Virus record (IMG/VR): IMGVR_UViG_3300045135_003095
Location: 1 to 34,398 of that record
Length of the DNA stretch: 34,398 bases
Source of the DNA: a virus
Strand: one strand, 5' to 3'
Below are positions 3,039 to 29,618 of the stretch, piece after piece. The notes beneath the pieces are model-generated. The model did not search any database. It was not told the origin of the DNA and saw only the letters and a program-made list of their open reading frames with translations. Every line of letters starts with the position of its first letter. The first letter of the stretch is position 1. The translations under genes and the position numbers were made by a program.

Positions 3039-4685
3039 ATGAACAAACAAGAATCCATTATTGCAAGGCTTGGTGAGGAGCGGTTAACCGAGCTCATTGG
3101 CCCTGAAATTGTTGAGGTTCTCGCAAGTTTGGATCAAAAACGGGCAGGCCCTAAGGCTTTAGCAGAACTTCTTGTCGGTATGGAGGGGCCCGGTATATTA
3201 TTGTCTCGTCCCGACGTGCGTTCTGCAGTTTTTGACAGCTTGCCAGTACAACATGCCACTGAATTGTCGAGAAGACTTGGTCAACCTGGCTTGTCCCCAT
3301 GGGAAGAGCTAGGCCGCACGCGATTTCGCAAAGGCTCTTTTGCAGCAAAAACATTGTTGAGTTGGTTGGAAATCAATGAATGGGACATAGAGGACATTGA
3401 TGCTTCGGGTGTCAAGCATGATAAAGTTTCTTCTGTTGACCCCGAATATCCCCTTTTTGCCCATCAAATATTGGCGATTCAAAGAGTTCACAATGCACTA
3501 GATAGTGAGTTCGGCAGGGTAATTCTACATATGCCAACAGGATCGGGTAAAACCCGCTCCGCAATAAATGTTATCGTTGATCGCCTTCGTGGTGAGCTTT
3601 CAGACGGGCGGTCAGCGGTTTGGTTGGCGCATTCGGAAGAACTGTGCGAACAAGCCGCTTCTGAATTCGAAACTGCTTGGAAGCTGCTCGGAAACCAAAA
3701 GGTCAATGTTATCCGGCATTTTGGGCCACATGTATCAGAAGAAATTCAGGACCTATCAAACTCTTTCGTAATTTTGAGTTTGCAGTCGGCTCATTCCTTA
3801 GCATTTAGTTCGAAACGTGATGGGATGCTATTTGCGATTGGTCGAGCAAGTGGGCTCGTTGTGATTGATGAAGCCCACAAAGCCACAGCTGAAACATATA
3901 AGCACGTTTTGAACCTCTTAGCACCTCAGGGAAGCACCAAACTTCTTGGTCTAACTGCGACACCGGGCAGGAGTTGGGCCGACATCGATGCTGACGAAGA
4001 ACTTGCAGATTTCTTTGGCCGTAAAAAAGTGACTCTTGAGGTTCAAGGTTTTAACAATCCCGTCGAATATCTGGTTTCTGAGGGGTATCTAGCGGCAGTT
4101 CAAACTGAAGAGATTAGATATCTGGGAGGGTCAGATCTTTCGGAAAAGGAGATCGAACAGTTAGCCCTCACTGGGGATGTTCCGAGGACTGCTTTGAAAC
4201 GCATTGGCAAGGACGCTGCGCGAAATTTAAGAATTCTTTTGCGAGCTGAAAAGGAAGCTACCGACGGGAATTCAATCTTAATTTTTGCTTGTTCGGTAGA
4301 ACACGCAAACGCACTAACAGCGTTACTTAAACTTCGACATGTTTCGGCAGAATGCGTGACAAGTTCTACCCCGAGACAGGTAAGGCGCCGCTCAATAGAG
4401 AAGTTCAAGTCTGGTGAGATCTCAGTGCTTTGTAATTACGGGGTTTTGAGCACTGGTTTTGATGCCCCAAAAGCGAACGTCGCTATAATTGCGCGCCCAA
4501 CCCAATCTCTGGTTTTATATAGCCAAATGGTTGGGCGTGTAATTCGAGGACCTCGAGCTGGAGGCACAAAAGCCTGCAAAGTGGTTACAGTCGTTGACCA
4601 AAAATATGGATTTCGGAACCTAGGTGAAGCATTCACCTTTTGGGATGACCTTTGGAAGGAGCATAAAGAAAATGGACGGAACTGA
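3039..4685 (+). CDS. SF2 DEAH-box helicase
   Basis: A 548-residue superfamily 2 helicase. Visible motifs are Walker A PTGSGKT (166-172), DEAH (277-280), TATPGR (306-311), LSTGFD (470-475) and QMVGRVIRG (496-504), so both RecA-like domains look intact. The architecture resembles restriction-enzyme-type (ResIII) helicases and translocases. About 130 N-terminal residues precede the motor and are not recognised; they may contact a partner. The start has a GAGGGG stretch upstream. It shares 14 bp with the next gene, whose ATG lies inside its last codons, which indicates tight coupling. It is divergent from the TerB-like gene across 57 bp. With the GHKL ATPase, PLD nuclease and TerB it probably forms the effector half of the Ssp island; which subunit acts on which DNA is unknown. 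Confidence 0.88.
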   Translation: MNKQESIIARLGEERLTELIGPEIVEVLASLDQKRAGPKALAELLVGMEGPGILLSRPDVRSAVFDSLPVQHATELSRRLGQPGLSPWEELGRTRFRKGSFAAKTLLSWLEINEWDIEDIDASGVKHDKVSSVDPEYPLFAHQILAIQRVHNALDSEFGRVILHMPTGSGKTRSAINVIVDRLRGELSDGRSAVWLAHSEELCEQAASEFETAWKLLGNQKVNVIRHFGPHVSEEIQDLSNSFVILSLQSAHSLAFSSKRDGMLFAIGRASGLVVIDEAHKATAETYKHVLNLLAPQGSTKLLGLTATPGRSWADIDADEELADFFGRKKVTLEVQGFNNPVEYLVSEGYLAAVQTEEIRYLGGSDLSEKEIEQLALTGDVPRTALKRIGKDAARNLRILLRAEKEATDGNSILIFACSVEHANALTALLKLRHVSAECVTSSTPRQVRRRSIEKFKSGEISVLCNYGVLSTGFDAPKANVAIIARPTQSLVLYSQMVGRVIRGPRAGGTKACKVVTVVDQKYGFRNLGEAFTFWDDLWKEHKENGRN

Positions 4686-6501
4686 ATTGGGCGCAAAAGT
4701 CGAAACAACGGAATTTTTTGATATCGTTCCTCCGCAACTTGCAATTAAAGCCATGCGTTCGAGTGGCTTTAAAAGCACCGATCATGCGGTCGCGGAATTG
4801 ATTGACAATAGTATTCAAGCTGGGCTTGCTTCTGGAAATGATGTTACAAATGTAGAAGTGCTTTGCATCGAAAGACCCGTTCAAATTGGTGTACGGCAAG
4901 CGCATAGAATTGACGAAGTAGTTGTCTATGATAACGCGTCAGGTATGAGTCCAAGCCTCCTCCGCAAGGCGTTGATGTTTGGTTCTGGAACAAACCTGGA
5001 TCCTGAAAATCAGAAAGGGATTGGTAAATTTGGTATGGGATTGCCTAACGCATCAATATCCCAGTGTAAAAATGTGGATGTTTATTCATGGCAACAAGGA
5101 AAATGCTACTTCACAACTCTAAGCGTTGACTCGATTTTAGAAGGACGTATGCGGGAGGTCCCAGAGCCCGTCGAAAAAGAAGTACCTGCTACCTACAAAC
5201 AACTCATCAAGTCCGAGATTGGCGAAAGTGGGACTATTGTGATTTGGCGCAACTTGGACAAAACCACTTGGGTCAGACATAAAGCATTCTTTAGAAACTC
5301 CGAGTTCCTGATAGGAAGGTTATACCGGAGGTTTATTTCAGATGGATCCGTGAAAATACGCTTTGGTGCGTACAATTCTATTGATCACGAAAACTTTGAA
5401 TTCATGGACGAACTATTTGTTCGTGCAAATGATCCCTTGATGCTATCCACTGGGACATCTGCCCCAGATGAATTCGCTAAATCTCCTGCTTTTGAGGAAT
5501 TCGGCGCGCATGATGAACTAACGGTATCTCTTCCCGATGGGAGCGAAAGCAAAATCGTTATTAGGTATTCCGTTGCGAAGCAAGAGACCAGGTTAGCAGG
5601 CGAAGGCGGCGGGGCCGGGGGGCATACTCCTATAGGAAAATTCTTGAAACGCAATGTGGGGGTCAGCGTTGTTCGAGCCGGACGTGAGCTTGAGATGAAC
5701 CAAACTTGGGTCAATCCAAGTGAGCCTCGCGAGCGTTGGTGGGGCATAGAAATTGAATTTCAGCCGGAACTTGACGACATTTTTGGCGTCACCAACGACA
5801 AGCAAGCAGCAACTAACCTTTACTCGGCTGATTACAAGGAAGATGCCGACGATTTGGGTATGACCCCTAGCGAGTTAATGGAGCAATTACAGGAAACAAA
5901 AGATCCAAAGCTGGCAAACTACAGGGTTTCAAACGCAATTGCTATAAGACTGAGAACCTTGCGTGAACATATTAAGAAGCAGAACGCAGGCAGTCGCCAA
6001 ACCAAACAAAAGACAAGGCGGGCCGAGGCAACCGCCACCAAGGTTACGGAAATCCGCGCAGCACAAAAAGCAACGGCTTCTGACGTTGCTTTTCAAAATA
6101 CATCCGATGATGAGCGTAAAACTGTCATAAAAAATGCCTACGTGGAGTCAGGTTATGATGAAGGCCATGCGGACGCCCTTGCAGTAGAAGCGGTAAGTTC
6201 AGGCGTACGCTATATGTTTACCGAAGCTTCGCTCTCCTCTCCCGCAATTTTCGACCTTGCTCAGGAAAGGGGCGAATATTTTATCAAGCTCAACACACGT
6301 CATCCCGCATTCAAGAACTTCATAGAATTGATGCAGGATGATGATGGGGATGAAGAAGCGCCTGCCCTAGTAGGTCTCAAATTGCTTTTAACGGCATGGG
6401 CTCGGATGGAAGATGAAGCAAGCGATAGGGAGCTTGATGTGCTTCAGGACATTCGATTGTCGTGGGGCCAAATGGCCCGTGATTTTTTGCGGGAACTCTG
6501 A
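4672..6501 (+). CDS. GHKL (Hsp90/MORC-type) ATPase
   Basis: A 609-residue protein with an N-terminal GHKL ATP-binding domain: the N-box AVAELIDNSIQAG (E42, N46), the G1 box VYDNASGMS (D87) and the G2 box GIGKFGMGLPNAS (116 onward). A transducer-like second domain follows. Residues about 440-490 are a lysine/arginine-rich, probably coiled stretch with several KQK and RRAE repeats, and an acidic C-terminal helical domain ends the protein. The layout recalls MORC and MutL-like ATPases that clamp around DNA on ATP binding. I chose the ATG at 4672, preceded by GGAAGGAG and overlapping the helicase stop. A longer start at 4624 lies deep inside the helicase gene. It likely works as a DNA clamp with the helicase; this is inferred. 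Confidence 0.85.
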   Translation: MDGTELGAKVETTEFFDIVPPQLAIKAMRSSGFKSTDHAVAELIDNSIQAGLASGNDVTNVEVLCIERPVQIGVRQAHRIDEVVVYDNASGMSPSLLRKALMFGSGTNLDPENQKGIGKFGMGLPNASISQCKNVDVYSWQQGKCYFTTLSVDSILEGRMREVPEPVEKEVPATYKQLIKSEIGESGTIVIWRNLDKTTWVRHKAFFRNSEFLIGRLYRRFISDGSVKIRFGAYNSIDHENFEFMDELFVRANDPLMLSTGTSAPDEFAKSPAFEEFGAHDELTVSLPDGSESKIVIRYSVAKQETRLAGEGGGAGGHTPIGKFLKRNVGVSVVRAGRELEMNQTWVNPSEPRERWWGIEIEFQPELDDIFGVTNDKQAATNLYSADYKEDADDLGMTPSELMEQLQETKDPKLANYRVSNAIAIRLRTLREHIKKQNAGSRQTKQKTRRAEATATKVTEIRAAQKATASDVAFQNTSDDERKTVIKNAYVESGYDEGHADALAVEAVSSGVRYMFTEASLSSPAIFDLAQERGEYFIKLNTRHPAFKNFIELMQDDDGDEEAPALVGLKLLLTAWARMEDEASDRELDVLQDIRLSWGQMARDFLREL

Positions 6502-6574: not shown

Positions 6575-8503
6575 CTAAATATTTCTTATAAAGAGATCGA
6601 ATTCCTGCGCTGATGGCCCGTACCCAGAGAAATCAAAATTCGTAATCTTAGACAATTGGCGGTCAAATTCTGCTTGCTTGACGTAGCCTACCGACTCCTC
6701 AGGTAGGTAAAGTGATTTCATGTAAAGATATTGTCGATTTTCATCGTCGTAATCGAAAATGTGCACTTGCTGCGAGCGCATATCTATTTTGATCCGCTGG
6801 CGCAGTACCGGCAGTAGGTCCTCAAAATTCTCATATAACAACAAGGTCAATTTTCCTGTGTTCATGTGAATTTTGATCATGTCGGCCTGTTCAACGTCAC
6901 CGAACAGAATTGACCCACAGGCTACGTAACACCGAAGTATAGCTTGGAGGTTACCAAGCTGAGATTGATGGAACTGGAATTGGTGGTCTGGTAACAAATA
7001 CCCCAAACCTTCGTCTGCGGCGTCTTCCACGGCTTCACGCACCTTCGCTTCGTTCCCAATTGAAAACAGTAGTTCTCGGGCAGCGATTTGAGCGTTAGCG
7101 TAATTCCCCCAAAATTGTTTCAAGTCTTGCTGTAACCGTTTGGGGAGCTGCCGATACGGCTTATGACGTGAAAACAGCTCCAGCGCGAAATATAGCAACA
7201 GGTCTTCTTTTCGCTGCGCCGCCACTTTATCAAGCTCTTCCTGCGGACACAGCTTCTCAAGGCAGTAGTGCTGGGCGGTATTGAAGGCCACGCGGTTGAC
7301 TTGAAGAGCTTCTGAGAGTTCGGGAGGCATTTCGTCCGAATGAATAGGGCGACCTAGCTCCATGATTTCCGCACCAAGCGCCTCTAATGCAGGTGTGACC
7401 TTTTCCAATCGATCAATTGAAGGTTTTGGCTTCCGGCGAGAGCGCTGTCCACTTAGATTGGCGGTGCTTCGAATACCACGAGCGTATCGATTGATCTGGT
7501 ACTCTTGCAGTGCAATTTCATCTTTAAAGGCGAAAAAAATTCCTGGGGCCACTGCAACCGGTTCCACCCCGATGACATCTGAGATGTAGGATTTTAGCTG
7601 ATCTTGCGTATAGTATTTCTGGAAAGTATTCCGCGAGGTTAGGAATCCGTCTTTGTACGGTTTTGCATTTTCAATCGAAGCCGCGCTCGGAGACATCACG
7701 GCAACGCTGAGCGCTTTATCCGCTAGGTTCCAGGCTCTCGATAATGCTTGCCGTCGCTCGTCAGGATTTTCAATTACGTTGAGTACAAAACCGATGTTTA
7801 CCACGGTACTCTTTATTTTTGGGTTTTCTGGGGCAAAATGCGGGTCCCACCCGGCTGCTTTGATCCCACCTGCATTTAGTGTTTCGACATCATCTCCACG
7901 GCCACAACCGTAATCAAATAGAGTGTCACCGTTGGACAACACGCCCTGTCGAATAAGCAATTGAACTGGCTGCGATAGTTGATAACGGGCAAGGGCCGTC
8001 CGGTATCGCTCAACCGTTATTCCCGTTGTCTCAGATTGTTTTGTAATCTTGTGACCGTTAATTGAAATTCCATGACTAGCGAGGCGAACCCTCCACTGTT
8101 CTTTGAAGCCGATCTTGTGGGGCTCATAAAACACCCCAAGCCGGTCCAAACTCTCTGTCAATTTGGAAAAGTCCTCGCGACCCGGATGATCGGGATGAAG
8201 CAGGAGTTCTTTCCGATGTAGGATCGGCGGGTTTGACTGTTTGGAAAAGTCACGCAGACTCTTTCGACCATCAAGAAGGTCGAAGCGAACGCTCTTCCTC
8301 AGTTCGGGAAAAGCAGCTTCCGCAAAGTCTTGATAAGTCAGGAAAGCAACGTTTTCGTTGCCGATGCGGACTACGTTCCAATCTCTTTCTTCTTTTACGA
8401 GATTTTGGGCCAGTTCTTGAACAAGCTCTTGGTCCTCCTGTAGAGCAAAGGCAAGGCTTGTCTTGTGGAGGTAAAGATCCCCTGCTACGCGTTTCCCGAT
8501 CAT
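6575..8503 (-). CDS. DNA phosphorothioation-associated putative methyltransferase
   Basis: A 642-residue protein whose N terminus (MIGKRVAGDLYLHKTSL) matches the start typical of the family named DNA phosphorothioation-associated putative methyltransferase. Residues 196-204 (FDYGCGRGD) form an AdoMet-binding motif I. GWDPH at 218-222 fits the following acidic-loop region, and NIGFVLNVIENPDER at 237-251 fits the motif IV region of a class I methyltransferase. The long C-terminal half has no motif I recognise. It is the last gene of the ssp operon, 10 nt after the preceding stop, with GGCGGGGA as ribosome binding site. Its substrate is unknown. It could modify DNA near phosphorothioates or a partner protein. 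Confidence 0.85.
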   Translation of the reverse strand: MIGKRVAGDLYLHKTSLAFALQEDQELVQELAQNLVKEERDWNVVRIGNENVAFLTYQDFAEAAFPELRKSVRFDLLDGRKSLRDFSKQSNPPILHRKELLLHPDHPGREDFSKLTESLDRLGVFYEPHKIGFKEQWRVRLASHGISINGHKITKQSETTGITVERYRTALARYQLSQPVQLLIRQGVLSNGDTLFDYGCGRGDDVETLNAGGIKAAGWDPHFAPENPKIKSTVVNIGFVLNVIENPDERRQALSRAWNLADKALSVAVMSPSAASIENAKPYKDGFLTSRNTFQKYYTQDQLKSYISDVIGVEPVAVAPGIFFAFKDEIALQEYQINRYARGIRSTANLSGQRSRRKPKPSIDRLEKVTPALEALGAEIMELGRPIHSDEMPPELSEALQVNRVAFNTAQHYCLEKLCPQEELDKVAAQRKEDLLLYFALELFSRHKPYRQLPKRLQQDLKQFWGNYANAQIAARELLFSIGNEAKVREAVEDAADEGLGYLLPDHQFQFHQSQLGNLQAILRCYVACGSILFGDVEQADMIKIHMNTGKLTLLLYENFEDLLPVLRQRIKIDMRSQQVHIFDYDDENRQYLYMKSLYLPEESVGYVKQAEFDRQLSKITNFDFSGYGPSAQEFDLFIRNI

Positions 8504-9153: not shown

Positions 9154-9993
9154 CTACTTATGGCAAGCGAGGCAGACTTTCTGCTGACCATATAGGTCAT
9201 CAATGTCAACGTGGCCTTCGTCAGGACGTAAAGGATTGATCCGCCGTTTCTTTTTTGCTTTTTCTAAACGCTTTTCGTGTTCGATTTTGATCTGCTGAAT
9301 ACGCTCCGGCTTCGAAAGCTCATCAAGGCTTTCACCTTGGCACCATGTGAAAGGAGACCCATCGTCAAGAGCCGTCTTTTCCATGTTTCGGGCGTTCTCG
9401 AAGGCTTCGGGATGGCGCTCTAATAGTCCCACCCATTCAATTTTACGCTGAAAGAAACAGAACGTACACCCGCTACGAGATCTCCAATCATAATATTTAG
9501 GCAAGCCAAGGCCTGAGTTCTCCAAGATTTCAAATACACCGGCTTTATCGACGTGGGCTTCGACGAAGGGCAAAACAGTCTCAATGTCTTTTTTTGACTG
9601 CAGCCCTTCCCGAAAGTTCTCATCAGCCCGGATCGCGACGTAAGATTTCACCTGAAAACCTTGGCTAATGAACTCTTCTTCAACCCACCTTTCGAATGGC
9701 ACCAATTTTAATTGAATGGTACACCAACGGGCTTGGGGAGATGGCAAGAAGTTGTTGTATTGCTTCAGATAAAATTTGAAATCACGCTGGGGATCTAAGT
9801 AACGAATTGGCTTTCCTAGATAGCCTTCCAACATATTGAGGTACTCATAGACCTCTTCCAATTCTTCGCCGGTATCCGTGAAGAAGTACTCTATATCCAA
9901 ATCGGGAAAGTTCTCGCGCATGTAAATGGCCAAAGCAGAACTGTCTTTGCCGCCAGATAATCCCAATACGTGTTTGGTCTTTTCCTCAGACAT
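9154..9993 (-). CDS. sspD: SspD-like PP-loop ATP pyrophosphatase (DndC/PAPS reductase family)
   Basis: A 279-residue member of the PAPS reductase/DndC family. The PP-loop SGGKDSS is at 13-19. FFTDTGEELEEVYEYL follows at 37-52, which is typical of the family's nucleotide site. Cysteines C91 (ARWCT), C176 and C179 (SGCTFCF), and C274 and C277 near the C terminus could hold an iron-sulfur cluster as in DndC. In the SspABCD pathway SspD activates the DNA backbone by ATP pyrophosphatase chemistry so that sulfur can replace a non-bridging oxygen. Its ATG overlaps the sspC stop by 8 nt and has AGAGGAAA upstream. The order sspB-sspC-sspD fits the known locus. Confidence 0.9.
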   Translation of the reverse strand: MSEEKTKHVLGLSGGKDSSALAIYMRENFPDLDIEYFFTDTGEELEEVYEYLNMLEGYLGKPIRYLDPQRDFKFYLKQYNNFLPSPQARWCTIQLKLVPFERWVEEEFISQGFQVKSYVAIRADENFREGLQSKKDIETVLPFVEAHVDKAGVFEILENSGLGLPKYYDWRSRSGCTFCFFQRKIEWVGLLERHPEAFENARNMEKTALDDGSPFTWCQGESLDELSKPERIQQIKIEHEKRLEKAKKKRRINPLRPDEGHVDIDDLYGQQKVCLACHK

Positions 9994-12900
9994 TATTTTC
10001 CTCTTTCTTAAGTAGAAATGCTAAGGCAGCAATCATTTCGCGGAACCCAACAGTCGCATTTTCCTTCGCCAACAATTTGGATATTTGTTCGCTCAAGTGC
10101 ATCGCCTCTTGTACCTGTTCAGGCGACAACTCGATGTCTTCTGTCCTCACATGGCCGTCGCCACTATTATGGAAGACCAAAGACAACGCATTGCGAGAGC
10201 TTTTCCGACCTTTGATATGGCCCATCGTTTCTAGAGTGTTGAATTTTCTGGCGTAGTTTGTTGCTTCAACGAACAGTTTATCGACGTCGTTGTCGATCCA
10301 AAGTTTGGCTGGTTTGTTGACAAGCATCCCTGCCAATTTCTCAATGCTGCTGGTTTCCATCGATAAAGTTGACAGGTTGGTTATGAATGTTTCCATTCGG
10401 TTGTCGCCGGCCATTTTTTGTACGTTCTTTGCCCTTTCGTGCAACCGTTCAAGAGATGCTGGTGAGGCAGTTGGAATGCCGACTTCCTTGAGAAGGTGGC
10501 GACGCAGATCGTCCATGACGTGTGCCTGATACGTACGCAGCTCGGATAGTGCGCCCTCAACCTTACCGAGCACTTCTTGAAGGGCAATTTCATCTCGAAG
10601 ATCTATTTCTCCAAAAAGATTTGGGATGTCGATCAATGTAAACTGTGCTGGATCTATTGCCCGAGCGAATAGACTCCGAACGAGTTTCGCGTTGTGTGAG
10701 ACTTTGGCCGTTTTCTTTGTCCAAGGCGGCACGCTATCGAAAAGGGCAATCAAACTCCGAGCAACGTCAAGTGGCGCGGTGGACCTTGGTATAGACTGCC
10801 CGAGGCGTGGTGGAATTTCAGCTAGCGCTTCGAGTAGGACCTTGGTCTTCGCGTCGAAATCCAAGTACCGCAAAGAACAATATTTCGGGGATTTTAAGAA
10901 ATAGTCCGCGTCAACTTGGGTGAGTTCCGGAGAGAACACGCCGTCCTGATAAGCGACAAGTTCGGATGCGTGGATTTTTGCAAAGAGGAAAGAAAAAATG
11001 GGTAGCAAACCGCCCTTAAGCCCATATGGAGGTTGGGTCCAAATTTTTTGATAGATTTCGACGAGCCCGACTGCACGATCTTTGTGAATCTTCAAATAAT
11101 TTAGCGTCCGCGTGAACAACATCGCCAAGCGTTGTGCTTTTTCATTGTTTGCTACCTCCGGATCGAGCAGCTTCCATTGGCCGCCTTTCAGAGCGTATAT
11201 ACCGTAGTCTTTCAGTACCGTCTCAAAGATCGCTCTTTCTGGGGGGAAAGATGAATAACCTAGGTTTTCTTCTCCTTCGTGCTCCAATAAATCGTAGAGA
11301 AATTGCTTTGTAGCACGGCTGGCGCTCGCCGAGACCTTCATGCGATTGATGAGTTCATTTTGAACAATCGGCGCGTGTTCATAGAGCGCGTTCGCAATAT
11401 TCGACGCAATTTGCGCGAGGCTCGCAGATTTGAACTCTTGGTCTAGTGCAGGACTGTCCCACGTGGCCTCAGTGAGCTTTTCGCTAATAAGGTTCCCAAT
11501 TTGTTGGCGCCGCAAATCAATCCGATCATAGACTTCGCGTCGCGCTATCTTGTCCTTTGAAAGCTCTGCCCTGTGTTCGCCAATTCGGGACAGCGCCACG
11601 AATTCCCGGATGGTATCAACATCGACTTCTGTAAGCTCTAGGGTTGTGACCGCAAAATGCTGTCGTAGCTCACTATTGTGTACATGTTCATTGATTGCAT
11701 CGCCGCTATTGCCGATATTTACGATGAACCGCGCAAAGTGCCCAGTCGAGGGGGAGAAATCGTCAATTGCACTAGTGCTTTGCTCAAGGTCGGCGAACGC
11801 AATATCGGCCCAGCGCATTGAGCCGGTTTCTAGAAAGTGACGTTTTGCGATGACGGTTGAACCCAGGAATTCTTGACCCAATCTATCCAAATCGATTGAG
11901 TTCTGTAGTTCCAATTCTTCAGCTAGAGCGACGTCAATATTGAAGTCACTTCCCTCGTGAAGGAAGATCGAATTGTTGTGCGACCTAACAGAAACCAGGT
12001 TAGCCACAACCAATTTATTTACTACGCGCTTGGCTTGTGGTCGACTAATCCCAAGAGCAATTGCCAAGGTGTCATGGTTCGCACTTAGGCCTGTTTCATG
12101 GCGGGTCAGCTCAAGCAAATGGACGCTTTTGATTGCGTCAACTAACTGGGCAAAATCGGGATCGATCGCCGCTAGCTTTTCATCAAGTTGACCTAACGTT
12201 TCCTTTGCGATGCTGAAGCTATGCGAATCTTGGCTTGCAGAGATCAGCCCACTCCAGTTGAGACTTAAGTAATCCCAAAGGTTGGGTAAGCTGAAGCCGC
12301 ATTTGTCGACGGTTCCAACTTGGTGTGTATCCAGATATGCCCGAAAACCTAGCGGTTCATTAGAGCTTAGGAATGTGAAAATGCTTCTTTGATTTTGGCC
12401 GTAGCTTCTCTTGCTGATCGGCCCCAAAACATAGGTCGTCAGAGGGTTCAGTGGCCAGCATCGTGTCAAAAGATTTGGAAGGTTTTTCGCTGGTGTTCGC
12501 TTGGTGGCAGAAAGATGTTTGAAGAAACGCTCGGACAAAACTTTTTGGTGCGACGGAGCGCAGTCGGAGTTTACTGCGTTTGAAATCAGCTCAATCTGTT
12601 CGGCACTGTTCAAGTTGAGGCCAATGTCGGCAAAACGCCCTTGAACTTTGCCCCATTCATCCCTGACCCGCTTGATCGCTGTTACTGCGTATTCCTGAAT
12701 GGACTGATGTAAAATGCCAATGAATACGAACCTACCACCGCTTCTCGCGGCGGCCTCTGCCAAAAGTTGGTACAAATAGACGTCGCCATCATTACTAACG
12801 GCATATTCCAAAAACTTCCCCATCTCGTCGACGATCAGAACGAGGCCGGAACCTTTATCCTCTGACCGCACGAAAGTTTCGATGGCTTCAACGAGTTCTT

Positions 12901-13360
12901 TACCGGAGAATTTCCTTTCTGTCGGAATTACCCCCAAATCGGCCAACCGATCCTGCAAGGCAGCCTTAAATGAGGACTTGGTTCCAACAATTGGAACGCT
13001 TGTCCATGAACCTACGTTCTTGAAAAAAGCTTTGGAAAGCGTGCTTCGCGTGCTCTCATAGTAGCATTTCGAAGCAGTATCCCTTTCTTCCTTCGAGCCA
13101 ACCAAAAAGGACAACAGGCTTTGTGCAAGCGTAGATTTTCCACTTCCATAAGGCCCTGTCCAGGTGAAAGCACCCTGAGGTGTGTCGCCCAACTGATGCT
13201 CGGCAAGGGTTCTTAAAAATTGATCAATTGTATTGGAATAGATCAACTTTTGGCTTGTTTCGGGAGCATCATCAATCCTTGATGAACGAACAAATTGCTC
13301 CCGTATCGGGATAACGTCGGATAGCATTTTGCGGTCGAGCTTGTTCATAAGTGTCGCCAT
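9986..13360 (-). CDS. sspC: SspC-like large P-loop ATPase
   Basis: A 1124-residue protein with Walker A GPYGSGKST at 69-77, Walker B LVLIVDEMG at 173-181 and a sensor-like FIGILHQS at 213-220, that is, a STAND/AAA-type ATPase core. About 700 residues of mostly helical, unrecognised sequence follow, including a winged-helix-like stretch near 430-460 (ALGISRPQAKRVVNKLV). The position between sspB and sspD and the size identify it as SspC, the ATPase of the single-strand phosphorothioation machinery. Two starts are possible: ATG at 13360 (16-nt overlap with sspB) or ATG at 13348 (ATGA overlap). Neither has a clear Shine-Dalgarno, so translation is presumably coupled to sspB. Confidence 0.88.
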   Translation of the reverse strand: MATLMNKLDRKMLSDVIPIREQFVRSSRIDDAPETSQKLIYSNTIDQFLRTLAEHQLGDTPQGAFTWTGPYGSGKSTLAQSLLSFLVGSKEERDTASKCYYESTRSTLSKAFFKNVGSWTSVPIVGTKSSFKAALQDRLADLGVIPTERKFSGKELVEAIETFVRSEDKGSGLVLIVDEMGKFLEYAVSNDGDVYLYQLLAEAAARSGGRFVFIGILHQSIQEYAVTAIKRVRDEWGKVQGRFADIGLNLNSAEQIELISNAVNSDCAPSHQKVLSERFFKHLSATKRTPAKNLPNLLTRCWPLNPLTTYVLGPISKRSYGQNQRSIFTFLSSNEPLGFRAYLDTHQVGTVDKCGFSLPNLWDYLSLNWSGLISASQDSHSFSIAKETLGQLDEKLAAIDPDFAQLVDAIKSVHLLELTRHETGLSANHDTLAIALGISRPQAKRVVNKLVVANLVSVRSHNNSIFLHEGSDFNIDVALAEELELQNSIDLDRLGQEFLGSTVIAKRHFLETGSMRWADIAFADLEQSTSAIDDFSPSTGHFARFIVNIGNSGDAINEHVHNSELRQHFAVTTLELTEVDVDTIREFVALSRIGEHRAELSKDKIARREVYDRIDLRRQQIGNLISEKLTEATWDSPALDQEFKSASLAQIASNIANALYEHAPIVQNELINRMKVSASASRATKQFLYDLLEHEGEENLGYSSFPPERAIFETVLKDYGIYALKGGQWKLLDPEVANNEKAQRLAMLFTRTLNYLKIHKDRAVGLVEIYQKIWTQPPYGLKGGLLPIFSFLFAKIHASELVAYQDGVFSPELTQVDADYFLKSPKYCSLRYLDFDAKTKVLLEALAEIPPRLGQSIPRSTAPLDVARSLIALFDSVPPWTKKTAKVSHNAKLVRSLFARAIDPAQFTLIDIPNLFGEIDLRDEIALQEVLGKVEGALSELRTYQAHVMDDLRRHLLKEVGIPTASPASLERLHERAKNVQKMAGDNRMETFITNLSTLSMETSSIEKLAGMLVNKPAKLWIDNDVDKLFVEATNYARKFNTLETMGHIKGRKSSRNALSLVFHNSGDGHVRTEDIELSPEQVQEAMHLSEQISKLLAKENATVGFREMIAALAFLLKKEENNV

Positions 13361-14253
13361 AGATTTTTCAAAAGTTCAGGCTTGAATTTTCGTTGGTTCT
13401 TGAAGATTTGGACAATTCCAGCAGTCTCAGAAACTTCCAGCATACCATTTGTGCGGTCTGAAATACGAGCAACGCGATCCAAGAGCTCTGTCTCGCTCAG
13501 TGCAAAAATCCGGCCTGGTGATCGCGCACTGTAGAGCAATGTGTCGAGTTTGATCGAAGTGGAGTTCGCGTCCGTAGAATCCCAAAAATCATGTATCGCG
13601 CTAATCAAAAGACCATCGCTCAAGGATTTCTTCGGGCCTATGGCAATGGAATATGTCCCATCATGGTTCATACGTATTAGCCCCAACTCTTGAAGTGGAT
13701 AAGAGATCTCATCCTCGGAGCGGTGTGATGAATTTTTTCCCCCACAGTACATTGAAAGCGTGACCGACACATCAGTCTTTAGGGTCTTTTGAGCAGGCGC
13801 TGAGCGTTCGTTTTTCTCGCAATACTCAACCAACCTGCGCTCAAGGTGCTCACGACTAAAGGAAGCCGAGTTTAGATGAGAGAATACCCAGTATATTGTT
13901 GTGTTTAAGGGATTTTTCGCTATCTCATAGTGAACCTTCCATAAGGTTGAACTTTTTTCAAGATATGGATCAAGGTCCTTCATGACGGCAATCGCGTAGT
14001 CACTTGCCTCGTAGCCGTGCTCACCTTTTAGAATGAAATTTGACGCTAGCGCCCAATGCTTGATTGCGTTCACCATATTCTTGCCGACGCCGAAGCGGAT
14101 GATGCTGTCGTTAGAAGAAAAGGGGTTTCCATGCCCTTCTTTCCGCTTCACTTCATGAAATGCCTTTTCAAGCCATCCGTGACGCAGAGCAAATGAATCG
14201 TGCCCCGTAAAGCTTACAGGCATATTGCTGCCGTTAATTGTTGTATTGTTCAT
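13345..14253 (-). CDS. sspB: SspB-like DUF4007 protein
   Basis: A 302-residue DUF4007 protein. The N-terminal signature is clear: SFTGHDSFALRHGWLEKA, then NDSIIRFGVGKNMVNAIKHW, then an acidic mid-region ending in YPLQELGLI, typical of the family. SspB is the DUF4007 subunit of SspABCD and is reported to nick DNA during single-strand phosphorothioation. I chose the ATG at 14253, seven nt after GGAG. A TTG at 14265 would add four residues, but the GGAG lies inside that extension. It is the first gene of the minus-strand operon and is divergent from sspA across about 120 bp with several inverted repeats. Confidence 0.92.
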   Translation of the reverse strand: MNNTTINGSNMPVSFTGHDSFALRHGWLEKAFHEVKRKEGHGNPFSSNDSIIRFGVGKNMVNAIKHWALASNFILKGEHGYEASDYAIAVMKDLDPYLEKSSTLWKVHYEIAKNPLNTTIYWVFSHLNSASFSREHLERRLVEYCEKNERSAPAQKTLKTDVSVTLSMYCGGKNSSHRSEDEISYPLQELGLIRMNHDGTYSIAIGPKKSLSDGLLISAIHDFWDSTDANSTSIKLDTLLYSARSPGRIFALSETELLDRVARISDRTNGMLEVSETAGIVQIFKNQRKFKPELLKNLWRHL

Positions 14254-14282
14254 TTTGTGCTCCAATGTATGGGCAACCTAGT

Positions 14283-14294
14283 CCAACACGTTGG
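14283..14294. repeat. Inverted repeat CCAAC-AC-GTTGG
   Basis: First of three short inverted repeats in the sspB/sspA divergent promoter region. It has 5-bp arms and a 2-bp centre and sits nearest the sspB side, at about 30-41 bp from its ATG. It may be an operator. Confidence 0.4.
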
Positions 14295-14304
14295 TGCGGT
14301 CAAA

Positions 14305-14334
14305 TTGCTATTGGTGAACTCCACCAGGAATAAT
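14305..14334 (+). promoter_or_regulatory. Possible sspA promoter with inverted repeat in the spacer
   Basis: TTGCTA (14305-14310) and AATAAT (14329-14334) are separated by 18 bp and lie about 40 bp before the sspA start. A TGGTG-AACTC-CACCA inverted repeat (14312-14326) fills the spacer, where a bound repressor would block polymerase. The match is modest and comes from inspection only. Confidence 0.35.
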
Positions 14335-14350
14335 TCTCAAACCACTTCAT

Positions 14351-14363
14351 CTACATGTTGTAG
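14351..14363. repeat. Inverted repeat CTACA-TGT-TGTAG
   Basis: Third inverted repeat of the divergent region, with 5-bp arms. It ends at the G-run (14363-14367) that serves as the sspA ribosome binding site. As RNA it could form a small hairpin in the sspA leader; as DNA it could be an operator. Confidence 0.35.
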
Positions 14364-14372
14364 GGGGCACGA

Positions 14373-15527
14373 TTGAAAGTTATATATCTAGATCATCAGG
14401 CGACAACGCCGATAGAAGCCGAAGTCGAAACCTACATGCGGCCTTTTTGGTCGGAGAGGTTTGGAAACCCACATGCCACCGAACATGCCATCGGGCTCAA
14501 CGCTGCAAGAGTCGTGGATGAGGCTCGCACGTCGGTTGCGTCGACATTGGCGTGCGAAATGGATGAAGTCTTCTTTACTTCAGGAGCTACTGAAGGAAAC
14601 AATCAAGTCATTTTTGGCATTTGCGCCTCACAGGCGATCGAGCAAAGCAGGAAACGTGTCATTGTGTCTGAAATTGAACATAAATGTGTTCAAGAGGCCG
14701 CCAAATATTGGACTTCGATCTTTGGGTTGGATCTGCAAATATTGGGAGTGGATCGGTTTGGATACGTTGACCTTGAGCAACTTGAAAACCTTTTGAAAAC
14801 TCCAACGCGGCTCGTTTCAATAATGGCCGTGAATAACGAGATTGGGACGATCCAAAACCTGAATCGGATTTCAGAAATGGTTTGGGATGCGGGTGCATTA
14901 TTTCATTCCGATTGTGCCCAGGCATTGAAGGCCCTGCCACAGCTAGAGGTATCTGATTTTGCCGACCTCGCGACTTTTTCCGGTCATAAAATTGGAGGGC
15001 CGCAAGGCGTAGGAGCGTGTTTCATTTCCGCGGATCTCCAAAATTCAATCTCGCCTTTGATACTCGGTGGAGGACAACAAAATGGAATACGCGCAGGCAC
15101 CCTACCTTTACCTCTGGTTGCGGGTGTTGGAAAAGCTTTTGAGCTTCGTTCCCGCTTGGGCGCGGTAAACGAAGAAGCGATCCGGACTAAATACCTTCGC
15201 GACAATTTCTTTGGGCGGCTTCGGGATGCGCGGCCCGAAATTTTGCTGAATGGACCATCGCTAGATGAGCGCCACGCTGGAAATTTAAATATTCAATTCC
15301 CGAATACGCCAACCGTTGAGCTACTCGCACGACTACGGAGCAACATTGCGGCCTCTAGTGGATCAGCGTGCAGTTCTGGAGCCATCAATCCGAGCTATGT
15401 GCTGAGGGCAATCGGCCTGAATGACGCCGAGGCAAAAAGTTCAGTCAGATTTGGTTTCTCAGAGAAGAATAATCTAGCCGAACTCAACAAGGCGCTTGAA
15501 TTGATATTGGTGGCTCTGACAACTTGA
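14373..15527 (+). CDS. sspA: SspA-like cysteine desulfurase (IscS/NifS family)
   Basis: A 384-residue PLP-dependent cysteine desulfurase. The internal-aldimine lysine is K206 in TFSGHKIGGPQG. The catalytic cysteine is C333 in SSGSACSSGA. H104 in SEIEHKCVQ stacks on the cofactor. The length and start (YLDHQATTP) match IscS/DndA-type enzymes. It should mobilise sulfur from cysteine to SspD for DNA phosphorothioation. The start codon is TTG, six nt after GGGGG, with no better ATG nearby. Transcription is divergent from sspBCD. It is the last defence gene before the prophage. A housekeeping IscS is possible in principle but unlikely given the neighbours. Confidence 0.93.
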   Translation: MKVIYLDHQATTPIEAEVETYMRPFWSERFGNPHATEHAIGLNAARVVDEARTSVASTLACEMDEVFFTSGATEGNNQVIFGICASQAIEQSRKRVIVSEIEHKCVQEAAKYWTSIFGLDLQILGVDRFGYVDLEQLENLLKTPTRLVSIMAVNNEIGTIQNLNRISEMVWDAGALFHSDCAQALKALPQLEVSDFADLATFSGHKIGGPQGVGACFISADLQNSISPLILGGGQQNGIRAGTLPLPLVAGVGKAFELRSRLGAVNEEAIRTKYLRDNFFGRLRDARPEILLNGPSLDERHAGNLNIQFPNTPTVELLARLRSNIAASSGSACSSGAINPSYVLRAIGLNDAEAKSSVRFGFSEKNNLAELNKALELILVALTT

Positions 15528-24983: not shown

Positions 24984-25576
24984 CAGAGCGCCTCCCGTGC
25001 CGCCACAGAGAAGCGGAAGCTATCGGCCCGGCTGATCCGCGTCGGCACCGGCTGCGTTAAGCGCAGCGCCACACCCGGCGCGGCCACCTCAACCGGGCTT
25101 AGATCCACAGGAGAGGAGCGCAAGCGCGGCGTAAAGCTCAGCACAGCCTCCCCATTGGCATCGGCCGTCACATCCTCCGTGATCTGATAGAGCCGCATAT
25201 CTTGGCCCGTCCCGAGTGAGATAAAATCCCCCGCCTCAAGCGCCAGCGCATCTGCGTCCCAACCCGAGGTGGTGAGCGTGCCGCCAGACTGACCCGCTCC
25301 AGAGACCGCAATGTCTCTCTGCGACAGATCAGGCCGCGCGGCCGAGGGATCGCGCAGCACAAACCAGCCCCGCACCCCGCCAAGCGCGGTGAAGAAGGCC
25401 GAGAGCCGCCGCCCATCACGGCCCTTGGTCAGTCCCACCTCAAATGTGACCTCCCACCACTCACCGCCCCAATCTTGGATCTGCTGGCTGCCGGTAAACG
25501 GCGAGGTTTGAGCCGTGACCGCCGTCACCAGACGCCGCTCAATCGACCCAATCAATGTCAAAGGAAGCTCACTCAT
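24983..25576 (-). CDS. Distal tail protein (gpM position)
   Basis: A 197-residue protein with the pattern QDWGGEWWEVTFEVGLTKG, then LSAFFTALGGVRGWFVLRDP. This W-GG-W plus short helical repeat pattern is usual for distal tail proteins that follow the tape measure gene. Its ATG overlaps the tape measure stop. It probably forms part of the tail tip. Confidence 0.7.
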   Translation of the reverse strand: MSELPLTLIGSIERRLVTAVTAQTSPFTGSQQIQDWGGEWWEVTFEVGLTKGRDGRRLSAFFTALGGVRGWFVLRDPSAARPDLSQRDIAVSGAGQSGGTLTTSGWDADALALEAGDFISLGTGQDMRLYQITEDVTADANGEAVLSFTPRLRSSPVDLSPVEVAAPGVALRLTQPVPTRISRADSFRFSVAAREAL

Positions 25577-28002
25577 AGTGCATACCCCCGCTGCCGGCGA
25601 TCACTCACGCTCTGGATCGCCACCCGTTTAATCTCCGGCAAGGCCGCCTGCAGCTTGGCCTCAATCTGCTCCGCCACGCCCATCTGCGCCCCGCGCGCAT
25701 CGATTGAGATCGACACCCCGCCACCCGCAGCTCCGCCAGGCGAATAAGCCGCCGCCTCGCGTCGATTGAGCACCCGCTCGCCGCGCTGCAGGATCGTCGG
25801 CACTTCATCAGGCCGCAAACCAGCCCAGGAGCCAACCGGCTCCACGGTGCCACCAGAATGCATCCGCGCCGCCCCAGCAAACACTGCCGCCGGCACAGAG
25901 CGCGACATGCCAGACAGACCCACCATGCCGCCATTATGCGACACCGCCGCCGTGGTGCTGCCACCGCCAAATACGCCGGAAAGCGCATTGGCAATCGGCC
26001 CCAGAACCGCGTTCTTAAACGCCAGCACCGCCAGATCCGCGAGGATCGAGCGCACCAGGCCCTTAAAATCCAACTTGCCGGTTTCCACAAAGCTGCGGAA
26101 GGCAGACTCGGCATTCTGAAACGCCGATACCAGCGCCCCGCCAACGCCCTTGCCAAAATCCATCGCAGTGTCGGCATAGTCTTTAAGAGACTGCTTCGCG
26201 GCTGCCCAGCCGGTTAGCTTATCCTTGACGCCATCCGCCGCACCGCCGGCCGCCGCAAGCGCAGCGGTCACCTTATCCGCCGAGGCCGCCGCCTCATCGA
26301 GCGCATCCGCGCCCTCATCACCCGCCCCGGTCATCGCATCTTTGAGTGCCTGCCATGCGGTCAGCGGCCCAGAGGCCGCCGTGCTCAGCATCCGCGCCGC
26401 CTCGGCATAGCCAGACGCCCGGATCCGCGCATCATCTGCCATGCCATCAAAAAGCGTCGGCGCTTTCAGAGGATCATCCGCAAACGCGCTCTCATAGGCC
26501 TCGCGCGCAGCCTCCCCGAGACTCACCGCCTCCGGCACGGTTTGTTTCCACTCCGTGAGGTCCGGCGCCGGGATAGCCCATTCCGGCCGGCGGCCGCCAA
26601 GCGTCAACAGGCTGTTGACCGCAGAGGTCAGCCCTTCAAGGCCGCTCTCCATCGCCTCAACCAGACCATTGATCGCCAGAGCGCCAATCCGATCAAACAC
26701 CGCCGGTAAGCTCTCCCAGATCGCCTGAACGCCGAGGAACGTGCCCTCAAATGTGTTCAAAATGCTATTGGCCCAGCCGACAACCCCATCACTGGCAGCT
26801 TGCAGACCAGCGTAGATCCCCGCTTGTGCCGTAGCCCAACTGCTCTCCACATGCGCCCAGGCCGCCTGTGCAGAGAGCGAGACCTTGGACCAGACCTCGG
26901 AAGCCACATCCTTCAACAGACCCAACGCCGCGCCAAAACCGCCCGCGCCAGAGACGAGCTTCGAGAACCAATAGACCAGCTCTCCCGCCCCCACGACCAG
27001 CGCCCCGATCCCGGTGCGAACAAGCGCGCCCTTCAACACCCGAAGCGCCCCCGCCGTGCGCAGCGTCATCGCTGCCGCAGCCGCCATGCCGGCAACCCAC
27101 TTGCCCGCCATCAAAGCCGCAAATGTGCCCGCATAGGCCATGATCCGGCCAATATTGTGCGTCAGCGCATCAAGTCCCCTGCCAATCGGCCCCGTCGAGC
27201 GCGCCAGATCCACAAAGGTCTTTGCTAGCCCCTCCAGCACCGGTGCCAAGGCCGAGCCGATCTTATTGCCCATCCCCGTCATCACCTGACCCACAGCCAC
27301 CAGCGCCGTGCGCGAGCGGTTCAGACCCGCAATCGTCTTGCGATCCATCACCACGCCGAGGTCCGCCGCCCGCTCGGCCAGACGGGTCATCTGAGCGCCA
27401 TTGTCGCGCAAGAGCGGCAAAAGCGCCGTCGCATCCGAGGCCATCGACTCGAGATAAAACGTCATGTCCTGCTGGCTGGCCCCCGCCTTCTCCAGCGAGG
27501 CGATATAGAGCTGCAACGCCTCCGGCCCCGACAGCTTGGCAAACTGCGCGGCCGTCACCCCAACCTTCGGGGCGACATTTTCAAAAAAATCCTTCATCGG
27601 ACCGCCGCCGGTTTGCAGGAAATCCCCCACACGGTCGTTCACGTCCTTCAAAATATCCGACAGCTTATCCGCCTCGATCCCCACCGTCTCAGCGCCCGCC
27701 GCCCAGCCTTGGAACATCTCCGGGTCCGCATTGGCGACCGCCGCCTGTTTTTGCACCTCAAAAGCCCGGTCCATCGCCGCATGGGTCGCCGCCACAGCGC
27801 CCGCCGCCGCTGCAGAGGCCGCACCGATTGCGGCGAACTTCACACCCCGCGCAAAAGCCGCCAGCTTGGCATTGGCCCGCTGCACCTCGCGCGGGATCTT
27901 CTTAAACGCCTTCTCGCCAGCCTCACCGACACCGCGCAGCTCACCCTCAACCTGCTTACCACCCGTCGCCGCTAAGCGCACCGAGACCTGCTTCGTCGCC
28001 AT
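25573..28002 (-). CDS. Tail tape measure protein
   Basis: An 809-residue protein with an N-terminal charged helix, long Ala-rich helical stretches and several hydrophobic segments near 270-350 (MAYAGTFAALMAGKWVAGM). Its position after the tail assembly chaperone is the tape measure position. At about 0.15 nm per residue it predicts a tail near 120 nm, suitable for a siphovirus. I chose the ATG at 28002, preceded by GGGGA. A TTG at 28014 is upstream. The ATG lies inside the end of the frameshifted chaperone gene, so the two overlap. Confidence 0.9.
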   Translation of the reverse strand: MATKQVSVRLAATGGKQVEGELRGVGEAGEKAFKKIPREVQRANAKLAAFARGVKFAAIGAASAAAAGAVAATHAAMDRAFEVQKQAAVANADPEMFQGWAAGAETVGIEADKLSDILKDVNDRVGDFLQTGGGPMKDFFENVAPKVGVTAAQFAKLSGPEALQLYIASLEKAGASQQDMTFYLESMASDATALLPLLRDNGAQMTRLAERAADLGVVMDRKTIAGLNRSRTALVAVGQVMTGMGNKIGSALAPVLEGLAKTFVDLARSTGPIGRGLDALTHNIGRIMAYAGTFAALMAGKWVAGMAAAAAMTLRTAGALRVLKGALVRTGIGALVVGAGELVYWFSKLVSGAGGFGAALGLLKDVASEVWSKVSLSAQAAWAHVESSWATAQAGIYAGLQAASDGVVGWANSILNTFEGTFLGVQAIWESLPAVFDRIGALAINGLVEAMESGLEGLTSAVNSLLTLGGRRPEWAIPAPDLTEWKQTVPEAVSLGEAAREAYESAFADDPLKAPTLFDGMADDARIRASGYAEAARMLSTAASGPLTAWQALKDAMTGAGDEGADALDEAAASADKVTAALAAAGGAADGVKDKLTGWAAAKQSLKDYADTAMDFGKGVGGALVSAFQNAESAFRSFVETGKLDFKGLVRSILADLAVLAFKNAVLGPIANALSGVFGGGSTTAAVSHNGGMVGLSGMSRSVPAAVFAGAARMHSGGTVEPVGSWAGLRPDEVPTILQRGERVLNRREAAAYSPGGAAGGGVSISIDARGAQMGVAEQIEAKLQAALPEIKRVAIQSVSDRRQRGYAL

Positions 28003-28327
28003 TGTGATCCCCAATCTGCTCGCTAAACTTGCGCACCATCACCGCCTCAATGGGCGGCAACAGCTCTGCGATCACCCGCGGCGCAATGCCAAGCGCGGCC
28101 CCCAACTGCAAAGCCGCGCTCATATCCCAGCCGGTGACAACCCCGCCGTCCGCGCCGGCCATCACCCGAACCTGACCTCCAAGACGCTGCACCAGGTCCC
28201 AGATCTGCCAGCCCTCAAGGGTTTGCGGCGCGTTCACCAGACATGGGCAATCCACGCAGACGCCAGAGCATCCTGTGCAATAGTCACCGCCCCCGCCGAA
28301 CTCCCAGTCGGCGAGAGCGGTCAGCCG
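27956..28327 (-). CDS. Frameshift-dependent chaperone extension (gpT-like)
   Basis: This frame has no convincing start of its own (the first candidate is a GTG at 28255 without a good ribosome site). It is open without a stop from the slippery site to TAA at 27958. After a -1 shift at the end of the 119-aa gene, translation continues here for 123 residues, giving a product of about 241 aa. The junction region is Cys-rich (DYCTGCSGVCVDCPC) and could bind metal. This corresponds to the T part of lambda gpGT, which helps load the tube protein on the tape measure. Confidence 0.8.
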   Translation of the reverse strand, partial: RLTALADWEFGGGGDYCTGCSGVCVDCPCLVNAPQTLEGWQIWDLVQRLGGQVRVMAGADGGVVTGWDMSAALQLGAALGIAPRVIAELLPPIEAVMVRKFSEQIGDHNGDEAGLGALSGDGW

Positions 28328-28680
28328 TTTTTTTCCTGATCCAGCAACATCGCGCCGGCGACGACCTTCTCCTGGAACGCCTCAAACATCGGCCAAAGAT
28401 CCAGCAAAGCAGAGATCCACTCCGTCGAGACAGGCACAGGCGCGCCCGCCTCATCGCCGACACCCTCCCAGTCTTCGATCACCATTCCGGCAATGACCTT
28501 TGCCACAGCAAGCGCCACGGCCTCATCCTCCGGAGCCTCCTCCGCCTGGGTCAGCTGGGCGACGCGCGGATCTTTGCGCGCCGCCAGCATCATCGCCGAG
28601 GTCAATGGCTGGACCTTCACGCGCACACCGCCCGCAAGATCCATCCAACGCGATCCCGCCTCAAGATTGAGTTTCAGCAT
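28321..28680 (-). CDS. Tail assembly chaperone (gpG-like)
   Basis: A 119-residue acidic, helical protein between the tail tube and the tape measure, the position of lambda gpG. It starts at ATG 28680, which overlaps the tube stop (TGATG). A longer start at 28755 would lie inside the tube gene. The last codons GAA AAA AAC GGC TGA contain the slippery heptamer A AAA AAC, so part of the ribosomes should shift into the -1 frame. Confidence 0.85.
   Translation of the reverse strand: MLKLNLEAGSRWMDLAGGVRVKVQPLTSAMMLAARKDPRVAQLTQAEEAPEDEAVALAVAKVIAGMVIEDWEGVGDEAGAPVPVSTEWISALLDLWPMFEAFQEKVVAGAMLLDQEKNG
28327..28333 (-). promoter_or_regulatory. -1 ribosomal frameshift site A AAA AAC
   Basis: The minus-strand heptamer A AAA AAC matches the X XXY YYZ consensus, is in phase with the zero frame, and lies two codons before the zero-frame TGA. 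The -1 frame is open from there into the gpT-like region. A stem-loop downstream was not established. Confidence 0.85.
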
Positions 28681-29618
28681 CAGTAAGCCTCCACCGCGTT
28701 CACCAGAGTGACAGACGCCATCGCAGAGCCATCCGCCTGTTGCGCCGCCTGCCAATCAAAGCTCACCTGCACGCCCTGCGGCCCGGTGATCTCCCGGCGC
28801 GGACGCGGCAGATAGACCGTGGGCACAGACACCGTCAGGCTTTCACCAGAGGCCAGCTCATAGGCAAACTCCAGCGCGCAGGACGTGCCGTTCACCGCCT
28901 GGGTCAGCAGCGTGGTATCTGCAAAGCGCACGTCGATCTTGCCCGTCATCGCCGCGATCGAAGGATCCGCCCCGTCGATCTTGCCATCCGCCCGGATCGT
29001 CTCCACCCGATCCAGATTGTTGGCGTAATTGATCTCCGCAGAGACGATATTGCCAATCGAAACCCCATTGCGCGTCACCGAGCCGTTAAAATGCCCAAAC
29101 CGCTGCAGCGCCACCGTGGCCAGTGTCCCAGCCGACGAACTGGTCGCCAGATCCTCGCCTTGTGCCACGATCCCCACCGAGGCCGTCAAAAGCCCCGAGC
29201 GCGCCATCGACCAGCTCAAGCGATCCACCATGCAGCCCGCATACATCGCGTAGCTCGGCACCTCCGGGAGACCCGTCTCAATCGAGAACGATGGCAGCTC
29301 CCAGCTGCCGCTCTCAAACACATGCGTGTAAGGATCGGTGCCCGTGGTCGCGGGCGCCCCAAACGTGGCCTTCAGCCACAAGCCAAACGCCTCCGCATCC
29401 ATCGGCACCACCACAGTGCCATCCGCCGTCACCGCATCCTTCTGCGGTGCCAGAGGATCCCGGCCATAGCCAAGCAACTCCGAGGCTTGCAGAGGCTGCT
29501 CAGCCCCCAGCGAAGCCGTCGCAAACGGCATCTTCGTATACCCCGAACTCGGCGAAGTGCCATAAGTGGTTTCAAACGCAAGCGCCATTTGCGCGCGCGC
29601 TCCTTGGGCTCGTCCCAT
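28680..29618 (-). CDS. Major tail tube protein
   Basis: A 312-residue tail tube protein. The start (MGRAQGARAQMALAFETTYG) and the segment VPMDAEAFGLWLKATFG, then MVDRLSWSMARSGLLTASVG and LQRFGHFNGSVTRNGV, fit the tail tube family found in many alphaproteobacterial siphoviruses. The size suggests a tube domain with an extra C-terminal Ig-like part. It is followed directly by the tail assembly chaperone. Confidence 0.87.
   Translation of the reverse strand: MGRAQGARAQMALAFETTYGTSPSSGYTKMPFATASLGAEQPLQASELLGYGRDPLAPQKDAVTADGTVVVPMDAEAFGLWLKATFGAPATTGTDPYTHVFESGSWELPSFSIETGLPEVPSYAMYAGCMVDRLSWSMARSGLLTASVGIVAQGEDLATSSSAGTLATVALQRFGHFNGSVTRNGVSIGNIVSAEINYANNLDRVETIRADGKIDGADPSIAAMTGKIDVRFADTTLLTQAVNGTSCALEFAYELASGESLTVSVPTVYLPRPRREITGPQGVQVSFDWQAAQQADGSAMASVTLVNAVEAY

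Follow-up and report, generated by a model that had tools for sequence, protein, structure and literature searches.

The locus at 27956..28680 on the minus strand raises two connected questions: how an open -1 frame that runs past the stop codon of a short gene would be reached, and what kind of domain that frame encodes. Frameshifted tail chaperones are a textbook case, and the locus very probably encodes the tail assembly chaperone (G/GT) of a long-tailed prophage, of which both forms, G and GT, would be produced by way of -1 ribosomal frameshifting. The features on which the argument rests are given below with their positions in the window, by which is meant the whole stretch of 34,398 nucleotides (34.4 kb) that was analysed.

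28680..29618, minus strand: tail tube protein, directly upstream of G (PF18906 Phage_tube_2, E 1.5e-58)
28321..28680, minus strand: G, predicted tail assembly chaperone, 119 aa, 0-frame product (PHROG_313, E 5e-15; AF2 fold matches in BFVD)
28327..28333, minus strand: putative slippery heptamer A_AAA_AAC, in phase, 3 nt 5' of the 0-frame stop codon
28322..28326, minus strand: spacer GGCTG, 5 nt, from heptamer to hairpin
28308..28321, minus strand: 5' arm of the putative stimulatory hairpin, ACCGCTCTCGCCGA
28286..28299, minus strand: 3' arm of the same hairpin, TCGGCGGGGGCGGT; 14 bp with the 5' arm, 8-nt loop
27956..28327, minus strand: T, predicted -1 frame extension, 123 codons and a stop; the G-T fusion is 241 aa
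28247..28279, minus strand: CxxC-x3-CxxC four-cysteine motif (C17, C20, C24 and C27 of the T part)
28241-28243, minus strand: fifth Cys, private to this window
28001..28144, minus strand: DUF7697 (PF24752) / PHROG_11212, C-terminal half of the T domain (Pfam E 2.7e-23; PHROG E 3.2e-18)
25573..28002, minus strand: tape measure protein, overlapping the end of T (PF09718, E 4.8e-18; PHROG tape measure families)

Gene layout and identity of the G and T parts

Pfam matches on the window give the gene order tail tube, G/GT, tape measure. The start codon of G overlaps the last base of the tail tube stop codon, and the tape measure gene starts at the ATG at 28002, while the ORF listing puts a TTG start at 28014. 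The 0-frame end of G reads CAG GAA AAA AAC GGC TGA, so that the in-phase A_AAA_AAC described in the first-pass annotation is present as claimed, and AAAAAAC occurs just twice in the window, this heptamer being one of the two occurrences. From the heptamer the -1 frame is open until the stop at 27956-27958, also as had been stated, and the fusion, put earlier at about 241 aa, is of exactly that length with the predicted junction peptide ..DQEKNRLTALADWEF...

In addition to its PHROG_313 match, the G part gave an AF2 model (pLDDT 83) whose BFVD matches are viral tail assembly or pre-tape-measure chaperones (best E 4e-4). No significant match was found for the G part in Pfam or for the G and T parts by sequence in the PDB, and Foldseek of the G model against the PDB gave no match under E 0.4, leaving the viral library as the only informative one. 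The T part scores 82.1 bits on DUF7697, above the Pfam gathering threshold of 27 bits, and the -1 frame has 26 invariant columns across 32 diverse members. The AF2 model of the T domain was poor (pLDDT 62). Six of the 32 T domains weakly matched the tape measure family PHROG_680 (alignment A2; best E 9e-4), and a DUF7697 match was also seen in the Caulobacter vibrioides control genome.

DUF7697 and PHROG_11212 are families of unknown function and of about 50 residues (52-55), to which the C-terminal half of T belongs; however, they describe a function-less fragment, and both the cysteine motif and the link to a frameshift are missing from them. Both begin after the cysteines, which bears out the earlier statement that simple gene calls would hide the cluster, and we infer that they are fragments from gene calling without the frameshift. 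DUF7697, which was mentioned nowhere in a literature search and, like the downstream hairpin, was absent from the first-pass annotation, is likely to correspond to the T domain of a tail chaperone extended by frameshifting. One Pfam family and one PHROG family of unknown function would thereby receive a likely function, and standard gene calling is seen to strip the conserved cysteine part from the T domain.

Shift site, frame relation and downstream hairpin

The open -1 frame by itself means little, as long spurious ORFs are common in this G+C-rich DNA, and the comparison with related phages, which had been proposed earlier as a check, carries more of the argument. Among 80 related IMG/VR viral contigs, collected using the fused protein as query, GAAAAAAAC-N3-stop was found in 80/80, and in nearly all of these loci A_AAA_AAC sits exactly 10 nt ahead of the 0-frame stop codon and T lies in the -1 frame. 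When 80 further genome loci, mostly from Rhodobacterales, were added, the -1 relation held in 158 of the 164 sequences having both parts (the window and related loci). A test independent of the junction was made by picking loci with the C-terminal DUF7697 model alone, which is present in 63/296 genomes of the order and 14/399 of the phylum; all 54 of the loci so picked in which a G was detectable are in the -1 relation, and the distant loci whose sequences were read carry a heptamer in phase, in a few cases G_GGA_AAC, A_AAA_AAA or A_AAA_AAT. An in-phase shift heptamer is present in 173 of 174 distinct Cys-motif junctions, 54-60 nt ahead of the first Cys, and is A_AAA_AAC alone in 166 of the 174, counts that are not independent events because many of the loci are related. 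GAA/AAA/AAC is kept as a tandem-slip heptamer, and in the G_GGA_AAC lineages (RcBaka, RcKvothe) position and hairpin are kept.

The relation is not kept in every copy, since G and T share one frame in L086, L087 and L122. The first two are Roseovarius sp. TE539 prophages (L086, 3001-3723; L087, 2165-2860) with A8 in place of A7 and the hairpin mostly kept, which may mean that G and T are permanently fused, that the extra A is a sequencing error, or that slippage works in the reverse direction. Other broken or rearranged junctions are an A9 run in L090, the fused frames of L122, and frame breaks in L116, L002 and L023.

A 14-bp hairpin (ACCGCTCTCGCCGA / TCGGCGGGGGCGGT) begins 5 nt past the heptamer, and this spacer lies inside the usual range of 5-9 nt for -1 frameshifting (PMC5009743). 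Standard pairs fill 95% of pair cells across 84 distinct sequences, against 42-57% when the arms are slid. Double-sided changes were observed 27 times, compared with 11.8 +/- 2.5 in shuffles; 26 of the 27 are at basal pairs 6-41 and 7-40, the latter being broken in many relatives, and stem variation is mostly one-sided (C to U opposite G). Codon conservation beyond the amino acid level peaks at codons 116-133 of 241, which correspond to the heptamer and hairpin, although the loci were chosen for A_AAA_AAC, so that the EKN codons are not independent there while the hairpin codons are. Under synonymous randomisation with the same peptide, an equally stable fold arose in 0.14% of sequences and 14/14 pairs in 9 of 20,000, while the dinucleotide-shuffle z-score was just -1.7 (98-nt fold). 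The RcBaka/RcKvothe stem, GCGCCCTTGC / GCAAGGGCGC, is of other sequence and can pair at the same place, and the hairpin-region peptide differs between the window and these phages (FGKGAG vs FGGGGD). Judged from these alignments, heptamer, frame relation, hairpin and cysteines are conserved among related phages beyond what chance would give.

Translation of the locus and competing accounts of the frame change

The resemblance to lambda gpG/gpGT, for which the first-pass annotation had argued, is upheld by the PHROG_313 homology, the fold matches, the gene order, the conserved heptamer with its hairpin, and homologues annotated as joined CDS. As in lambda, the gene is flanked by the tail tube and tape measure genes, and a -1 frameshift near the end of G would add a T domain; however, the lambda heptamer is G_GGA_AAG, its T sequence is without cysteine, and DUF7697 is not known there. 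The Rhodobacter capsulatus RcC cluster phages (RcBaka gp16/gp17, RcKvothe) are true homologues over 95% of the fusion at 44-46% identity, with G/T annotated as joined CDS, the hairpin in the same place and the Cys motif YCDRCDGPCPDCPR; they differ in having G_GGA_AAC for A_AAA_AAC and a longer 0-frame tail past the shift site. A frameshift has been stated for R. capsulatus phages (PMC8601537). The pre-tape-measure chaperone of the Caulobacter phage CcrColossus is a distant homologue of the G part, but its T extension is without the CxxC motif; the published heptamers are A_AAA_AAC in phiCbK and G_GGA_AAC in Colossus (PMC3556154). The chaperone frameshift, the joined-CDS annotation in R. capsulatus phages and A_AAA_AAC in phiCbK were already known, while the assignment of DUF7697/PHROG_11212 to T, the conserved hairpin of this clade and the four-cysteine motif are new as far as searches show.

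Under ribosomal frameshifting, the majority of ribosomes would end at the TGA and release the 119-aa G, while a minority, with tRNA-Lys and tRNA-Asn sitting on A_AAA_AAC, would pause in front of the hairpin, and, as the signal suggests, the paused ribosomes would slip one base back and read on to 27956, giving the 241-aa GT. By analogy with lambda, for which the roles of G and T are taken from PMC5009743, G would coat the tape measure protein, while T, with a four-cysteine knuckle followed by DUF7697, would recruit tail tube subunits. G and GT are presumed to be made in unequal ratio. The report that a permanent G-T fusion in TP901-1 gives non-infecting particles (PMC4493119) fits the need for a G:GT ratio, and in a different phage chaperone cluster the shift was measured at 6-7% (PMC3711429). 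A point against the favoured explanation is that A_AAA_AAC shifts less readily in E. coli than A_AAA_AAG does (PMC5009743). The related loci amount to a large natural collection of A_AAA_AAC sites that are followed by a conserved hairpin; most come from alphaproteobacterial prophages, in which A_AAA_AAC and not A_AAA_AAG has been kept.

The same junction could in principle be bridged during transcription, if RNA polymerase slipped on the A7 run and so yielded a mixed mRNA population, with no ribosomal shift involved. The run of seven A with a C at its end would suit such slippage, relatives with A8 and A9 exist (L086, L087, L090), and the dnaX gene of Thermus uses transcriptional slippage in place of ribosomal frameshifting (PMC5009743). 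However, the RcC phages and L203 have G_GGA_AAC at the same place, without a long homopolymer; the conserved downstream structure stands at the spacing expected for a ribosome and is still untranscribed while the polymerase is on the run; and GAA/AAA/AAC is retained as a heptamer suited to tandem slippage. Polymerase slippage is on these grounds highly improbable.

That T is made as a protein of its own, from an internal start or by re-initiation in the -1 frame, is more improbable still. The first-pass annotation had seen no -1 start codon of quality, and this needs some adjustment, as a GTG at 28255, the sole -1-frame start codon ahead of the end of the cysteine cluster, does exist and opens a 99-aa ORF in the window; gene calling also produces truncated families of just this kind (DUF7697, PHROG_11212). 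The GTG is not conserved in relatives, however, and an internal start for T was rejected on finding, in 59 distinct relatives, no conserved start codon ahead of or inside the cysteine motif, so that most relatives could not make a separate T; a start at 28255 would, moreover, remove three of the four conserved cysteines. The least credible account, to which almost no weight is given, takes the -1 frame for an ORF that arose by chance in G+C-rich DNA. Such ORFs, even long ones, occur often in the window, but this frame encodes a conserved protein family (DUF7697, E 2.7e-23; 26 invariant columns in 32 diverse members), and that conservation already refutes a chance origin.

The cysteine motif and a possible metal site

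The cysteine cluster DYCTGCSGVCVDCPC was first credited with six cysteines but holds five, of which relatives conserve four (C17, C20, C24 and C27 of the -1 part). All 57 distinct T domains from the viral contigs show the pattern CxxC-loop-CxxCP; the loop between the CxxC pairs has 3 residues in 158 distinct junctions and 8, 9 or 14 in others, and one distant group has an altered spacing and still four cysteines. A structural zinc site is expected to show fixed CxxC pairs and a variable loop. The persistence of CxxC-loop-CxxCP despite a loop of variable length suggests that the T domain may be a metal site, and one structural zinc ion is most likely what the four cysteines would bind. The motif appears from sequence comparison to be a property of this clade and not of T function in general, since the lambda T is without cysteine and the Colossus extension is without CxxC.

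The metal-binding T domain of the first-pass annotation is supported indirectly: the two CxxC pairs are kept across loop lengths, but neither a significant match to a zinc family nor a confident fold was obtained. Nothing significant was found when T was compared with known zinc families (best Zn_ribbon, E 0.094), and a literature search on frameshifted tail chaperones with zinc or cysteine returned nothing relevant. For this part of the reading only, the cysteines might instead form disulfides or a redox switch, and the low confidence of the T model (pLDDT 62), together with the insignificant zinc-family matches, leaves room for it. However, structural zinc sites commonly take the form of two CxxC pairs that are separated by a loop of varying length and followed by Pro, and a tail chaperone acts in the reducing cytoplasm, which counts against disulfides; a disulfide or redox role is for these reasons considered unlikely.

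Extending a structural zinc site beyond the window, it is conceivable, though doubtful, that a large prophage clade in Rhodobacterales and some other bacteria has a zinc-dependent T domain, that recruitment of tube subunits by GT is metal- or redox-dependent, and that DUF7697 is a marker for T domains of this kind. A T domain that is compact and carries cysteines would lend itself well to structural work on how GT recruits tail tube subunits.

Elsewhere in the window, SspD, SspC, SspB and SspA, genes of phosphorothioate defence, lie at 9154-15527 beside the phage structural genes (PADLOC E 8e-126, 6e-281, 2e-84 and 4e-112). With the Ssp genes are a DNA phosphorothioation-associated methyltransferase (TIGR04096) at 6575-8503 and, adjoining them at 3039-6501, a PbeA-like helicase (E 9e-29) and an MzaB-like ATPase (E 1e-13).
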